Shown here piece by piece: positions 13,892 to 34,222 of a stretch of 34,222 nucleotides of DNA (position 1 is its first letter; each line of letters starts with the position of its first letter). Location of the stretch: NCBI GenBank assembly GCA_002011495.1, contig MTNR01000031.1, positions 1 to 34,222 of the forward strand, written 5' to 3'. The stretch comes from Dehalococcoides sp. JdFR-56. Its GTDB lineage: Bacteria > Chloroflexota > Dehalococcoidia > Dehalococcoidales > RBG-16-60-22. Position numbers and translations under genes: made by a program. A model generated the notes under the pieces. The model saw only the letters and a list, made by a program, of their open reading frames with translations. It did not search any database and was not told where the DNA came from.

Positions 13892-14464
13892 GTGTCAGGC
13901 AAGGTGATACTAGCTTACAGCGGTGGGCTGGATACTTCGGTTGCCATCGGGTGGCTGAAGGAGAGGTATGGCATGGAGGTGGTGACGCTCACCGTGGATG
14001 TTGGCAACGAGCCTGATTTTAGCGCCATCCGCCAGAAGGCGCTTGATGCCGGGGCGGTCAAGGTGGTGGTCCGGGAGGCCAAGGAGGAGTTCGTCAGGCG
14101 CTTTGTCTTCCCGGCGCTGCAGGCTGACGCCATCTATGAGGGGCAGTACCCGCTAATTTCTGCCCTTTCCCGCCCCCTCATCGCCGAGCTCTTGGTGGAG
14201 ACGGCGCGGGCCGAGGGGGCCAGCGCTGTGGCGCATGGATGCACTGGGAAGGGCAATGACCAAGTGAGGCTCAAGCTGTATAAGGGGAGCTCCATGGTGG
14301 TGGGGCGGAAATCACCCTTCTCCCTGTATAGCTATGGCCTGGCCACCTATGATAAGGGTGGCGTCTTTGACCATAGCGCCTCGGCTGGCTTCATTCACAT
14401 CTGGGGACTGCCCGCAAAAATTCAGGCCCAGGTGCAGGGCACCGGTGGCCTGGAAGAAGGCTAG
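13892..14464 (+). pseudogene. argG: Argininosuccinate synthase with large in-frame internal deletion (or assembly collapse)
   Basis: 190 aa versus about 400 in canonical ArgG. N-part [24 protein letters not shown]...[13 protein letters not shown] is fused directly to the C-part [59 protein letters not shown] start. Confidence 0.9.
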
Positions 14465-28618: not shown

Positions 28619-29902
28619 CTATTCCACCGGGGTTCTGGTCCAGAAGTCCTCCACAATCTTACCCGACAGTGGTTCCGCGAGTAAGCCGGGGAAGTACTTC
28701 TCGACCTCATCCTTGATGCCGGGGAAGTCAAGCAGGCCTATCGCGTTCATGAGCATGATTTGGGACCTTACCGCCCTCTGAGAAATATCGTCCTTCGCCC
28801 ACTTGTTCCAGAGCTCCACCGAGATCTTTCTGAATTTAGCGCGCTCCTCAGCGGGTAGCTCCATGTAGACGTTGCCGTATTCCTCGACCATCCACTTGAG
28901 GGCAACTAGGTCAGAGCCCATGATATTGGTGTGCAGGCTCCAGGAGAGGTCCCTTGAGCCGACCTCAAGCAGCCTCTGGAGGTCTTCGGGCAGCTTGTTC
29001 CAGCTATTCTGATTCATGACGAAGGCCTGCAAGTCCACCGGCTGATGCATCTGTCCCGGGCCGATGATATACTTGCCCACCTCGTGCAGGCCAAGCTCTC
29101 GGTTCATGGCATGCCCAACGTACTCGCCCAGGTCAATGACGCCCGTGGCCATCGCCGTGTAGATCTCGCTGCCGGGCAGAATGATCACCGAGGCCCCGGC
29201 TTTTTCGTAGATTTCAGCAATCATACCACCGGGGTATCGGCATTTCAACCCCTTCCAGTCTTCCATCTTGGAGAGGGGCTTTGTGGAGTGGGCATAGTTG
29301 GGGCCGGTCTGTATCGGCGCCACATAGTACATGCCAAACCGGGCGTAATCCTCCCGAGCTAGGTCAATGCCGCCCATGTTGTAGAACCAGACCTCCCACA
29401 TCCAGGCCTCGTCAAGACCATAGGGGTAGGAGCTGAGGTAGACGGCTAGGGCGTGCTTGCCTGGCCAGTACTGGGGCCAGCTGATGAAACCGTCAAGGGT
29501 ACCGGTCTGGACGGCGTCAAACATGTCAAAGGTACCGACTATGCCCTCCGCAGGGTAAGTTTCAATGTCAAGACGCCCCCCGCTCATCTCCTTTATCGTT
29601 CCTGCCCACCTTTCAAAGATTCGGTAGCCAGCAAGACCGGCGGCGTAGGCTTCCTGGACCCTGATGGTGTAAACCTCAGCTGGTTGGGCTGGGGCTGGTG
29701 CTGGAGCCGGGGCTGGGGTTGGAGCTGGAGCTGGTGCTGGAGCCGGAGCCGGCGCTGGAGCCGGGGCTGGGGTTGGAGCTGGAGCTGGGGCTGGAGCTGG
29801 AGCTGGTGCTGGAGCCGGAGCCGGCGCCGGTGCCGCACAGCTGACAATCAAGCTCCCGGCTACTAACAATGCCAGCGGAATCAACCATATTTTCCTTTTC
29901 AC
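28619..29902 (-). CDS. TRAP transporter solute-binding lipoprotein (DctP family) with long Ala-Pro linker
   Basis: 427 aa; signal plus lipobox LLVAGSLIVSC followed by (AP)n; GTFDMFDAVQTGTLDGFISWPQYWPGKH, KPLSKMEDWKGLKCRYPGG, LPGSEIYTAMATGVIDLGEYVG. Confidence 0.93.
   Translation of the reverse strand: MKRKIWLIPLALLVAGSLIVSCAAPAPAPAPAPAPAPAPAPAPTPAPAPAPAPAPAPAPAPTPAPAPAPAPAQPAEVYTIRVQEAYAAGLAGYRIFERWAGTIKEMSGGRLDIETYPAEGIVGTFDMFDAVQTGTLDGFISWPQYWPGKHALAVYLSSYPYGLDEAWMWEVWFYNMGGIDLAREDYARFGMYYVAPIQTGPNYAHSTKPLSKMEDWKGLKCRYPGGMIAEIYEKAGASVIILPGSEIYTAMATGVIDLGEYVGHAMNRELGLHEVGKYIIGPGQMHQPVDLQAFVMNQNSWNKLPEDLQRLLEVGSRDLSWSLHTNIMGSDLVALKWMVEEYGNVYMELPAEERAKFRKISVELWNKWAKDDISQRAVRSQIMLMNAIGLLDFPGIKDEVEKYFPGLLAEPLSGKIVEDFWTRTPVE
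29690..29832 (-). repeat. In-frame Ala-Pro-encoding tandem repeat with 54-nt higher-order unit
   Basis: ctggagccggggctggggttggagctggag... begins at 29701 and again at 29755; base unit about 6 nt (gctgga/gccgga). Confidence 0.9.
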
Positions 29903-30180: not shown

Positions 30181-30933
30181 TCAGTTACCTCCGTATCCCA
30201 TTTTCCGGGAGATTTCCAGGCCAAAATCCTTAACCAGCGATTTTAATTTCCTCACCTTCCCGCTGGTTAGGCGAGCTGAGGGCCCGGAAACGCTGAGGGC
30301 CGCCACCACATTCCCGTTCCGGTCCTTCACCGGCGTGGCCACACACTTCACCCCCAGCTCCTTCTCTTCATCATCCACGGCTATTCCCTCTCGCCTAACC
30401 GCAGCTAGCTCGCTCCTCAATTTAGCAATGTCCGTTATGGTGTTCTTGGTATAAGAGGTAAGATTATGACCATTTAGGTACTGCTCCACCTCCTCCTCTC
30501 CACGGTAGGCGAGCAGAACCTTCCCCACCCCCGTGCAGTACAGGGGCACTCTATTTCCGACCTCGGTGAACATGCGCAGGTCGTAGTGGGATTCAATGTG
30601 CTCAATATAAACCGCCTCGTTTGAATCCAGAACGGCGAGATTGACCGATTCACCAGCGATTTCATTTAGCCTCTCCAGAACAGGAAGCGCCATGTCCCTC
30701 ACCTTGATCGTCCTCTTGACCGCGCTGCCGAATTCCACGAGTTTCAGGCCAATGGAATATTTCCCCCTCGGTTGCCTCCGGCTGAGATAACCCCTCTTGA
30801 CAAAGGTTGAAGCAATGCGGTAGGTGGTGCTAACATTCAGCCCGCTTAAACGTGCCAGCTCCGATACCCCGATCTCACCTTCCTGCTTCAAGAAAACCTC
30901 CAAGAGGTCAAGAGCTTTTTCTAATCTTTGCAT
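30181..30933 (-). CDS. IclR family transcriptional regulator
   Basis: 250 aa; N-terminal wHTH MQRLEKALDLLEVFLKQEGEIGVSELARLSGLNVSTTYRIASTFVKRGYL; effector domain GESVNLAVLDSNEAVYIEHIES...YCTGVGKVLLAY, C-terminal ALSVSGPSARLT. Confidence 0.96.
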   Translation of the reverse strand: MQRLEKALDLLEVFLKQEGEIGVSELARLSGLNVSTTYRIASTFVKRGYLSRRQPRGKYSIGLKLVEFGSAVKRTIKVRDMALPVLERLNEIAGESVNLAVLDSNEAVYIEHIESHYDLRMFTEVGNRVPLYCTGVGKVLLAYRGEEEVEQYLNGHNLTSYTKNTITDIAKLRSELAAVRREGIAVDDEEKELGVKCVATPVKDRNGNVVAALSVSGPSARLTSGKVRKLKSLVKDFGLEISRKMGYGGN

Positions 30934-31143
30934 CGCCTCAGTTTTTTCTCTCAGTGAAAAACTTTTTTAATAAATAAAATTTTAAGTAACCTATAAATAT
31001 CCGAAGTGGTGGAATTTTTCAATGCGGAATTATCAGTGTTTTTCCTCTTGCAGTTGAGTAGAAATGGGATAGAAATACCCTATTTTGCTTGGGGATATGG
31101 ATAGTAGGCGTGCACCTTAACTGAGCTACCTCATCCAGAGGGC

Positions 31144-31174
31144 TTGACATTCCAGTTGCTGGAAGGTATATGCT
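31144..31174 (+). promoter_or_regulatory. MerR-family promoter/operator with 19-bp spacer
   Basis: TTGACA (31144-31149), 19-nt spacer containing TTCCAG TTG CTGGAA perfect dyad (31150-31164), TATGCT (31169-31174); 24 nt before the merR ATG. Confidence 0.85.
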
Positions 31175-31198
31175 AGCTTGTAGATAGGGAGGTGGGCC

Positions 31199-31648
31199 AT
31201 GAAAGCGGGACTGACCATCGGCGAGCTGGCAAGAATGCTCCAGCTCAACTCGAAGACAATCAGGTACTATGAGGAGGTGGGGTTGCTCCCGGCGCCCCGC
31301 AGAAGCGAGTCTGGTTACAGGCTTTATTCCAGCTATGAGGTGGAGCGCCTGCGGCTGGTTAGGCGGGCAAGGCTTCTCGGGCTATCTCTGGCGGAGGTCA
31401 AGGAGATCGTGGGATATGCCATTGATGGGCGCTGTGGCGAGATGGAGGAGCGTCTGCTCTGGCTAGTGGAAGCCAAGCTTGGTGAGGTTGACCAGAGGAT
31501 AGATGATTTGGTTAGCTTTAGGGACAGCCTGCGCCAGTATCACCGCGAGCTATCAAGCAGGGTGAAAGCTAAAGCCCCTGGGGAGCAGGTGAGCGCGGCC
31601 TCCGCTTCCTGTCAGTGTATTGGCGGAGAGGTGGATGGTTTGAGGTAA
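31199..31648 (+). CDS. MerR family transcriptional regulator, probable metal/thiol sensor
   Basis: 149 aa; LTIGELARMLQLNSKTIRYYEEVGLLPAPRRSESGYRLYSSYEVERLRLVRRARLLGLSLAEVKEIV; Cys in DGRCGEM and C-terminal SCQC. Confidence 0.95.
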   Translation: MKAGLTIGELARMLQLNSKTIRYYEEVGLLPAPRRSESGYRLYSSYEVERLRLVRRARLLGLSLAEVKEIVGYAIDGRCGEMEERLLWLVEAKLGEVDQRIDDLVSFRDSLRQYHRELSSRVKAKAPGEQVSAASASCQCIGGEVDGLR

Positions 31649-31702
31649 GCCTTTCCCTGGGCCCGGGGAAAGGCCAGCATATCGGAAAGGAGGAAAATTA
31701 CC

Positions 31703-31786
31703 ATGGCGGACAAGGGCAAGCAAGAGCCCAAGACCACAACCCCCCGCACCCAGTGTGGCTGCGGCTGCCTTCCGGTGAAGAAGTAG
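31703..31786 (+). CDS. 27-aa Cys-rich mini-protein (CGCGC motif)
   Basis: Not in the supplied ORF track. aaaggaggaaaattaccATG; MADKGKQEPKTTTPRTQCGCGCLPVKK*; strong Shine-Dalgarno, directly downstream of merR. Confidence 0.72.
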   Translation: MADKGKQEPKTTTPRTQCGCGCLPVKK

Positions 31787-31799
31787 GAAGGAAAAAGCG

Positions 31800-31836
31800 G
31801 GAGGAGGAGTTTGAAGGCGCCTTCAATTCCTCCTCC
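31800..31836. repeat. Long imperfect inverted repeat between the mini-protein gene and the permease gene
   Basis: GGAGGAGG-AGT-TTGAAGGC / GCCTTCAA-TT-CCTCCTCC; no T run. Confidence 0.7.
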
Positions 31837-31867
31837 GCCCAAATTACTCCTCCCCTCGGATAGAGGC

Positions 31868-31891
31868 CAGGCTTATTGTATAATAAGCCTG
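31868..31891. promoter_or_regulatory. Perfect 10-bp inverted repeat (operator or leader hairpin) upstream of the MOT1-like gene
   Basis: CAGGCTTATT GTAT AATAAGCCTG; embeds TATAAT (31879-31884); 23 nt before ATG 31915. Confidence 0.6.
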
Positions 31892-31914
31892 ACCACCCTC
31901 ATGCTGAGCCTGGC

Positions 31915-33030
31915 ATGCGTATTAAGGACTTTGAGTTTAACCTCCGTGAACTGGCTGGTTCCACGGGTGACTTCGGTACCCTCTTCCCCTTGGCTATCGG
32001 CTATTTTGCCGTGAACGGCCTAAACCCGGCTGGCCTATTGGTGTTGATGGGGCTGGCCAACATAGTTACCGGGATTATCTACCACCTGCCCATGCCCATC
32101 GAACCCAAGAAGGTGCTGGCGGTGGTGGCCATCACGCAGAAGTGGCCACCTTCACTGATTTACGCCACCGGTTTCGGCACCGGGGTCATCTGGCTGATAC
32201 TCTCCTTCACCGGGTTGATTCAGCAGATCGCTGCCGTGACGCCGAGGAGCGTGGTGCGGGGTGTTCAGGTTGCCCTGGGCGTGCTGCTAGCCATCGAGGG
32301 ATTCAAGATGGTGGCCACCGGCTGGCTACTGGGCGTTATCTCGGTCATCATCGTGATTGTGCTGCGGCAGAATAGATACGCACCGGCGGCCATCGTCCTC
32401 ATGGTGCTGGGGGTGGCCGTGGTTGGTTTCCGTGGTGAGCTAGTGCGGGCGGTTGACCTGGGTTTTACCTTGCCACCATTAACCCTTTTTAGCCCCGGTG
32501 AAATATGGAAGGGCCTGGTGCTTGCCGGCTTTGCCCAAGTAGCGCTCACTGCCACCAATGCCGTCATCGCCACCAGCGCCCTGATTTCGCAGTATTTCCC
32601 CGATAAACCCGTTCCGGAGAGGAAGCTTGCCCTGAATATGGGGATAATGAATGTCATCGCCCCCTTCTTTGGCGGGATGCCCATGTGCCATGGGGCGGGG
32701 GGACTGGCCGGTCAGTACTACTTCGGTGCCAGAACCGGCGGGACAAACATCATCGAGGGGCTAATGGAAATCAGCTTGGGGCTTTTCCTGGCCACCTCCA
32801 TCGCCACCCTTTTCTCCCTGTTTCCCCAGAGTATCATCGGAGCGATGCTGCTTCTGGTAGGCATTGAGCTGACCAAATTTGCCCGAGATATTAGGAAGGA
32901 TGAACTGCTCATCATGGCCCTGACGGCGGGGCTCTCGCTGGCGACTAATATGGCCATTGGCTTTGGGGTGGCCGTGGTCGCCTACCATGCCCTGCGAAGG
33001 TGGAAACCAGCTGCCAAATATGTGGGGTAG
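31915..33030 (+). CDS. MOT1-like putative sulfate/molybdate transporter
   Basis: Within ORF 31876-33030 (ORF-track start is TTG; ATG 31915 preferred). FNLRELAGSTGDFGTLFPLAIGY, PMPIEPKKVLAVVAI, GGMPMCHGAGGLAGQYYFGARTGG; polytopic. Confidence 0.88.
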   Translation: MRIKDFEFNLRELAGSTGDFGTLFPLAIGYFAVNGLNPAGLLVLMGLANIVTGIIYHLPMPIEPKKVLAVVAITQKWPPSLIYATGFGTGVIWLILSFTGLIQQIAAVTPRSVVRGVQVALGVLLAIEGFKMVATGWLLGVISVIIVIVLRQNRYAPAAIVLMVLGVAVVGFRGELVRAVDLGFTLPPLTLFSPGEIWKGLVLAGFAQVALTATNAVIATSALISQYFPDKPVPERKLALNMGIMNVIAPFFGGMPMCHGAGGLAGQYYFGARTGGTNIIEGLMEISLGLFLATSIATLFSLFPQSIIGAMLLLVGIELTKFARDIRKDELLIMALTAGLSLATNMAIGFGVAVVAYHALRRWKPAAKYVG

Positions 33031-33262
33031 GTCATGGGCGGTAGGCTCTTGGCCTCAAATGATAAGGTATTGACATCAGGCTGGATGGAACTATAAGACT
33101 TGCGTGGATATATAAGCAGCCCATTGAGTTAGGGGGGTGCTGATGGTAATACTTCGGGATACGGCTATTATCTTGGGCGCGCTGGGCTCACCATCTTGAT
33201 GCTATACCTAGACCTGCGGGCCATTTCTCCAAAGGCCGGACGGCCAATAACCTAGGCCCTTT

Positions 33263-34222
33263 TTACAGGGCCTGCCGGTAGATGGCCTTGATATCCTCTT
33301 CGGTCAAGTTCCTCGGGTTCCAGACGAAGAGCCGGGTCATGGTCATGGCGCCGGCGGTGAATTTGGGGATATCTTCCTTGGTGACCCCGTAGGTGCTCAG
33401 CTTGCTCGGGATGCCGAGGAGTTCCAGCATTCTAAATAGACTGCTCACCAGCCTTTCCGCGGCCTCATAGTTGGAGAGCCCCGCCACATTCTCCCCCATC
33501 GCTTGGGCGATGCGGGCGTAGCGGCTCAAGCTGCCTATCTTGTTGTAGTCTACCACGTAGGGGAGCATCACGGCGTTGGACCGGCCGTGGGTTAGGTGAT
33601 ACGTCATCCCCAGCGGGTTGGACACGGCGTGGACGATGCCTAGACCAGCGCTGGTGAAAGCCATCCCTGCCAAGGTGGCGGCCAGGGCCATGTTAAACCT
33701 GGCTTCCAGATTATCACCCTTGGCATAGGCTGCCGGTAGGTTTTCCGCGATGAGCCGGATGGCCTCAATGGCCAGGATATCGGAGAAGGGGGTGGCGCTC
33801 ACCGAGACGTAGGCCTCTATGGCGTGCACCAGCGCGTCCATGCCGGTATCCGCGGTCACCACCGGTGGCATGGAGACCATCAGCTTGGGGTCCACGATGG
33901 CCACCTCGGCCAGATTGAAATCACTGTATACCGCCTTCTTGAGTTTATCCGCCTCATCGGTGACCACGGCCACCCGGGTGGTCTCGCTTCCCGTCCCGGC
34001 GGTGGTGGTGATCAGAATCTTGGGCAGCCCGCGGCGGGGCACCTTATCCATGCCGGCATAGTCAAGCACCTTTCCTCCGTTCACCGCCACGATGGCGGCC
34101 CCCTTGGCCGTATCCAGGGAACTGCCGCCGCCGATGCCGATGACGAGGTCATACCCCTTTTCCTGGATTATCTGGGCGCACTCATCCACTATCCGCGCCG
34201 GTGGCTCTGCCTCCACCCCGTC
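33263..34222 (-). CDS. Iron-containing alcohol dehydrogenase (5' end beyond window)
   Basis: VIGIGGGSSLDTAKGAAI, ITTTAGTGSETTRVAVV, DALVHAIEAYVS, GIVHAVSNPLGMTYHLTHGRSNAVMLPYV (metal-binding His). The frame is open to the window edge (..DGVEAEPP). Confidence 0.95.
   Translation of the reverse strand, partial: DGVEAEPPARIVDECAQIIQEKGYDLVIGIGGGSSLDTAKGAAIVAVNGGKVLDYAGMDKVPRRGLPKILITTTAGTGSETTRVAVVTDEADKLKKAVYSDFNLAEVAIVDPKLMVSMPPVVTADTGMDALVHAIEAYVSVSATPFSDILAIEAIRLIAENLPAAYAKGDNLEARFNMALAATLAGMAFTSAGLGIVHAVSNPLGMTYHLTHGRSNAVMLPYVVDYNKIGSLSRYARIAQAMGENVAGLSNYEAAERLVSSLFRMLELLGIPSKLSTYGVTKEDIPKFTAGAMTMTRLFVWNPRNLTEEDIKAIYRQAL

Follow-up and report, generated by a model that had tools for sequence, protein, structure and literature searches.

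Metal-sensing regulators of the MerR family (ZntR, CueR, MerR and CadR/PbrR) combine a winged helix-turn-helix, a cysteine at the C79 position of the dimerisation helix and a dyad promoter with a 19-20-bp spacer. All of these traits are shared by the MerR-family regulator encoded on the 34,222-nt contig MTNR01000031.1 of Dehalococcoides sp. JdFR-56 (GCA_002011495.1), an uncultured Chloroflexota bacterium; this contig is the whole stretch of DNA analysed here and is referred to as the window. Unlike the described sensors, however, the window MerR carries a C-terminal CxC[LIM] tail in place of the metal-loop cysteine pair, and its partner is a mini-protein rather than an exporter. Bacterial metallothioneins (SmtA/BmtA/PmtA and MymT) are small and thiol-rich, with SmtB or CsoR as the regulator. 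The mini-protein resembles them in size, in thiol content and, judging from sequence, in its probable induction by metal, but has only three cysteines in 27 aa and a MerR as the regulator.

Operons that join a MerR to a small thiol protein are already known. In Pseudomonas aeruginosa, CadR activates Zrd, a previously unannotated small cysteine-rich protein (PMC12301328), and the window pair is similar in that a MerR-family regulator appears to drive an unannotated small cysteine-rich protein. However, Zrd consists of two CXXC-N10-CXXC zinc ribbons and has its site between two other genes (PMC12301328), whereas the 27-aa window mini-protein has a CxCxC motif and lies inside the merR operon. Our literature search found no paper describing the merR/mini-protein pair, and the CxCxC mini-protein is new to the families and papers found. 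Proteins so short are often omitted by gene-calling pipelines, and neither Pfam nor NCBIfam holds a model for the CGCGC mini-protein. The gene that follows encodes a permease. SulP-family MOT1-like transporters have been reported in sulfate reducers (PMC5840216), and the window permease is a clear member of the MOT1/PF16983 molybdate permeases, which adjoins the pair but is not a conserved part of it.

The MerR regulator and its promoter

The window MerR matches the winged helix-turn-helix and dimerisation-helix families PF13411 and PF09278 (Table 1), and it matches CadR and CueR in the PDB. It fell short of the NCBIfam equivalogs of ZntR, CueR, MerR and CadR, with no score above 89 bits where the cut-offs are at least 143. 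Exactly three cysteines are present, namely C79 in the GRCGE motif and C138/C140 in the CQC of the C-terminal tail. A cysteine starting the dimerisation helix at about position 79 was found in the window MerR and in its relatives from genomes G103, G086 and G150, whereas the Cys-loop-Cys that follows this helix in CueR (C112/C120) is absent from the window protein, leaving only C138/C140. With C79 and a CxC tail, the protein would have three thiolates at its disposal, as sensors of Hg, Cd/Pb or As do. Both the cysteine placement and the 19-bp-spaced dyad promoter announced in the original prediction are present.

Table 1. Features of the merR locus, in window coordinates
Feature	Position	Strand	Basis
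MerR-type promoter/operator	31144..31174	+	-35, dyad, -10, 19-bp spacer; read directly
-35 box TTGACA	31144-31149	+	sequence
Dyad TTCCAG-TTG-CTGGAA	31150-31164	+	sequence
-10 box TATGCT	31169-31174	+	sequence
MerR-family regulator, 149 aa	31199..31648	+	Pfam MerR_1 (PF13411) 1.9e-19, MerR-DNA-bind (PF09278) 1.5e-12
Ribosome-binding site AAAGGAGG of the mini-protein	31686..31693	+	sequence
Mini-protein, 27 aa, MADKGKQEPKTTTPRTQCGCGCLPVKK	31703..31786	+	homologues, purifying selection
Stem-loop 3' of the mini-protein, probable transcript end, no U-tract	31797..31838	+	folding
Second hairpin just ahead of the permease, a perfect palindrome with the sequence CAGGCTTATT-gtat-AATAAGCCTG	31868..31891	+	sequence, fold
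MOT1-like (PF16983) permease	31915..33030	+	PF16983 168.5 bits vs cut-off 30

The dyad promoter with a 19-20-bp spacer that characterises metal-sensing MerRs is not confined to the window, as a matching layout was found upstream of merR in G103, G086, G082, G332, G064, G320, G147 and G171. In G000, the genome to which the window belongs, a single copy of the dyad is placed in a MerR-type promoter. A wider MerR regulon in G000 was rejected, the remaining dyads not being in promoters.

With the MerR and the peptide as queries, we searched 394 genomes of the class, in which the best MerR matches were those of G086 (63% identity), G103 (60%) and G150 (55%). Among about 30 genomes of the same family, no close MerR was found besides one from G010 (41%), and the search in plasmids gave no MerR match. 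The MerRs of the window, G103, G086 and G150 form one supported clade (95/94) on the MerR tree although their hosts belong to other orders, a distribution suggestive of patchy loss or horizontal transfer. The G150 merR frame (L096 / L137) contains an in-frame TAG directly ahead of the CGC tail, for which a pseudogene, a sequencing error and a truncated sensor are possible readings.

The mini-protein gene is under purifying selection

The mini-protein ORF begins 54 nt past the merR stop codon behind a strong ribosome-binding site, and the mini-proteins at the other loci are likewise preceded by ribosome-binding sites. Across the whole ORF, pN was lower than pS in every pair among the window, G086, G103 and G104, and in the last ten codons (CGCGCLPVKK) pN was 0.00-0.18 against a pS of 0.27-0.70. 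This argues that the ORF is a protein and not noise. The well-translated-looking 27-aa peptide of the original prediction is thereby borne out, and the high Ka/Ks that was to speak against it was not seen.

We also scanned both strands of all fetched loci for ORFs of 18-50 aa with a ribosome-binding site and a C[GAST]C[GAST]C motif. The scan returned only loci that were MerR-linked or had been selected by the peptide, which, together with the lone promoter dyad in G000, points to more than chance. Searches of Pfam and NCBIfam, including the known metallothionein domains, gave no match to the mini-protein at an E-value of 1, and no convincing match was obtained in plasmids and phages or in the about 30 same-family genomes. 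Weak peptide matches in same-family and phylum genomes were rejected: no MerR adjoined them in the fetched stretches, and such a mini-ORF was rarely present.

The merR/mini-protein pair recurs in other genomes

A merR gene paired with a CxCxC mini-protein gene was found in the window and nine other genomes. Five genomes from other orders of the class encode a peptide with the CGCGC[LVA]xVK motif, the best matches among the 394 genomes being those of G086 (70% identity to the window peptide), G103 (65%), G150 (62%), G104 (52%) and G082 (52%). A merR adjoins the peptide gene wherever the contig extends far enough: in G086, G103, G150 and G082 the peptide begins shortly downstream of merR, and in G104 it lies at a contig end, with the upstream side out of view. 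Immediately after merR, related CxCxC mini-proteins are also encoded in G332 (CGCGCDCGCGC), G320 (CDCGCGCDCC), G147 (CDCGCDCC, in an ORF that overlaps the end of merR), G064 (a 62-aa, two-cluster version) and G171 (CDCDCIPPCPPDCC). The sample is small, at about ten loci from one class, mostly on metagenome-assembled contigs.

Furthermore, the mini-protein accompanies a particular form of the regulator. Among 28 MerRs compared, it was present with 9 of the 10 that have a CxC[LIM] tail and with 1 of the 18 that lack it (Fisher p 1.4e-5, kinship not removed and independent contrasts being few), the G150 MerR being entered as tail-bearing although its tail is readable only past the TAG. Judging from these sequences, merR and the mini-protein gene are a conserved two-gene unit. 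The proposal that a MerR and a thiol-rich mini-protein constitute a probably undescribed metal-handling pair therefore gains support from synteny, selection and the tail/mini-protein match, and of the three genes once expected to be conserved together, the first two are kept as a unit and the permease is not.

Another cysteine-rich partner was seen in L114 (G188), where the gene downstream of the MerR encodes 68 aa that include two CCEPxCGPxTC repeats.

Limits of the transcription unit

The 75-nt flank after the window peptide gave a folding z of -1.96, and 134 nt that also include the second hairpin gave -3.79. In the window, G086, G103 and G082, the stem-loops in the 75-nt flanks after the peptide were better than those of shuffles (z -1.9 to -2.9), and in G086 the core GAAGGCGCCTTC is retained immediately after the peptide; the corresponding flanks in G150 and G104 were not significant in this test. 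Moreover, the gene after the peptide is convergent in four homologues (G086, G150, G082 and G104). These stem-loops and convergent genes, together with the lone promoter dyad in G000, indicate that the transcription unit most likely comprises merR and the mini-protein gene. The palindrome of the second hairpin, a possible operator or hairpin, lies outside this pair and was not seen upstream of related permeases. An Rfam search of positions 30900-33300 yielded nothing credible.

The permease and alternative explanations

The permease score (Table 1) agrees with the MOT1-type assignment made earlier. Its start is likely the ATG at 31915 (MRIKDFEF...), in agreement with the starts of its relatives; the other candidate, a TTG at 31876, sits within a hairpin. 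The original prediction joined all three genes into a module for sensing, buffering and transport. In such a module, the MerR would respond to an oxyanion or metalloid such as molybdate, tungstate, arsenate or thiomolybdate, the mini-protein would buffer it and the permease, reached by read-through of the stem-loop, would transport it. The permease lies on the strand of the peptide, with 128 nt between the peptide stop and the ATG, and in G086 a MOT1 permease (36% identical), next to a ModE-like regulator, converges on the peptide gene from directly beyond it. Furthermore, a PF16983 gene is present in 5 of 6 CGCGC genomes against about 25 of 230 others of the class (p 1.3e-4, with kinship uncorrected and G103 assumed to be sampled), a co-occurrence that may reflect shared ancestry or habitat. 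However, the nearest relatives of the permease (75-79% identity) adjoin neither a MerR nor the peptide; read by eye, their surroundings are unrelated, with neighbours such as a DNA polymerase IV-like gene, a Zn-type ABC transporter with Fur, an aldehyde ferredoxin oxidoreductase-like gene and ETF. The peptide profile found no convincing match in 48 permease-bearing genomes of several phyla, the G086 permease and pair are on different strands, and the MOT1 genes of G082, G104 and G150 are on contigs other than that of the pair, where those of G082 and G104 adjoin an ABC transporter and a MobB-like gene, respectively, both of molybdate type. Two hairpins also separate peptide and permease in the window, and the three-gene module appears unlikely. 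The permease is probably a neighbour outside the operon, a separate molybdate/tungstate gene; the convergent gene of G086 and the genome-level co-occurrence are residual hints of a looser MOT1 link to the pair.

The order found in the window, a cysteine-rich short ORF, a strong stem-loop and a SulP-like anion permease, is also what would be expected of a Cys-codon attenuator leader, in which translation, depending on the supply of cysteine, would govern the stem-loop and with it a sulfate- or molybdate-type permease; mycobacteria are known to have polycysteine attenuators. We regard this as very improbable, because only in the window is the ORF followed by a co-directional SulP-like gene, the next gene being on the opposite strand in the four homologues named above and not a sulfur gene in G103. 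Moreover, selection acts on the amino acids, with TGT and TGC both in use as cysteine codons, the basic N-terminus is conserved, and the ORF follows merR instead of heading the operon. The association of the mini-protein with the CxC[LIM] tail, with three thiols available from each partner, would also suit a protein that, instead of buffering, serves MerR above all, either by donating metal to it or as its co-repressor, but longer versions such as that of L102, with 8 cysteines, resemble chelators, and this role seems improbable. A short protein whose cysteine-rich C-terminus follows a charged, leader-like stretch might further be the precursor of a ribosomally synthesised and modified peptide (RiPP); as neither a modifying enzyme nor an exporter recurs beside the pair, there is hardly any reason to expect this.

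Two small proteins, encoded at L021 4674-4901 (-) beside a MOT1 permease and at L135 1071-1373 (-) beside MerA/ArsR of G086, have in common a cysteine-rich CPAVE motif and resemble each other in their C-terminal halves; Pfam returned no family above cut-off for either.

A candidate soft-metal operon

We consider it rather probable, on the strength of the sequence comparisons, that merR and a metallothionein-like mini-protein gene form an autoregulated soft-metal operon. A MerR dimer would sit on the dyad of its own promoter, where the thiolates of C79 and C138/C140 would take a thiophilic ion (Hg2+, Cd2+/Pb2+, As(III) or Cu+). The ion-bound regulator would then twist the promoter and switch on merR and the mini-protein gene, and the Lys-rich, probably disordered product would chelate the ion through its three close cysteines, in the manner of a metal shuttle or a minimal metallothionein. 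The mini-protein would thereby remove the ion and, by stripping it from MerR, reset the switch; transcription would mostly stop at the first stem-loop.

Molybdate is a less likely ligand than Hg, Cd/Pb, As or Cu. Neighbours of soft-metal type were found in G086, where MerA (scoring 556 bits, above its cut-off) occurs together with a MerT-like gene and ArsR, and in G104, which has an ArsP_1 permease. Against the soft-metal operon, three cysteines are few for a metallothionein, the metal-loop cysteine pair usual in MerR sensors is missing, the TAG of G150 removes the tail there, and on the MerR tree the clustering of the mini-protein loci is incomplete (4 changes). No efflux pump was consistently linked to the pair in the loci compared. 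A further and rather tentative proposal is that MerRs of the sub-branch with a CxC tail, together with their tiny CxCxC proteins, constitute a minimal metal-homeostasis operon of a new type that would buffer the metal and reset the sensor with neither exporter nor reductase, the resetting proceeding by ligand exchange between the CxCxC protein and the CxC tail. A MerR-linked mini-protein of this kind, in about ten Chloroflexota genomes, would rank among the smallest metal-binding proteins known, and a single peptide with a single promoter would be enough to test the pairing of sensor and buffer.

Related MerRs in G838 and G199 precede an AhpD-domain gene. In G838 (Bacillota; L176 4511-6469), the order is MerR, AhpD-domain protein and arsenite methyltransferase (arsM), and the MerR tail is cysteine-rich; L141 (G199) has the same MerR-AhpD order. 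These loci are a possible As-responsive sister branch. Bacillota were rejected as a further source of the pair, their one MerR relative being accompanied by the AhpD-domain gene and arsM and not by the mini-protein.

Other features of the window

At positions 13892-14464, just before argH, an ORF reads as an argininosuccinate synthase of only 190 aa, with the N-terminal part apparently joined directly to C-terminal residues. It appears as if the middle of argG had been deleted, in reality or in the assembly. At positions 28619-29902 (-), a TRAP-type substrate-binding protein carries a very long linker of Ala-Pro repeats behind its lipoprotein-like signal.
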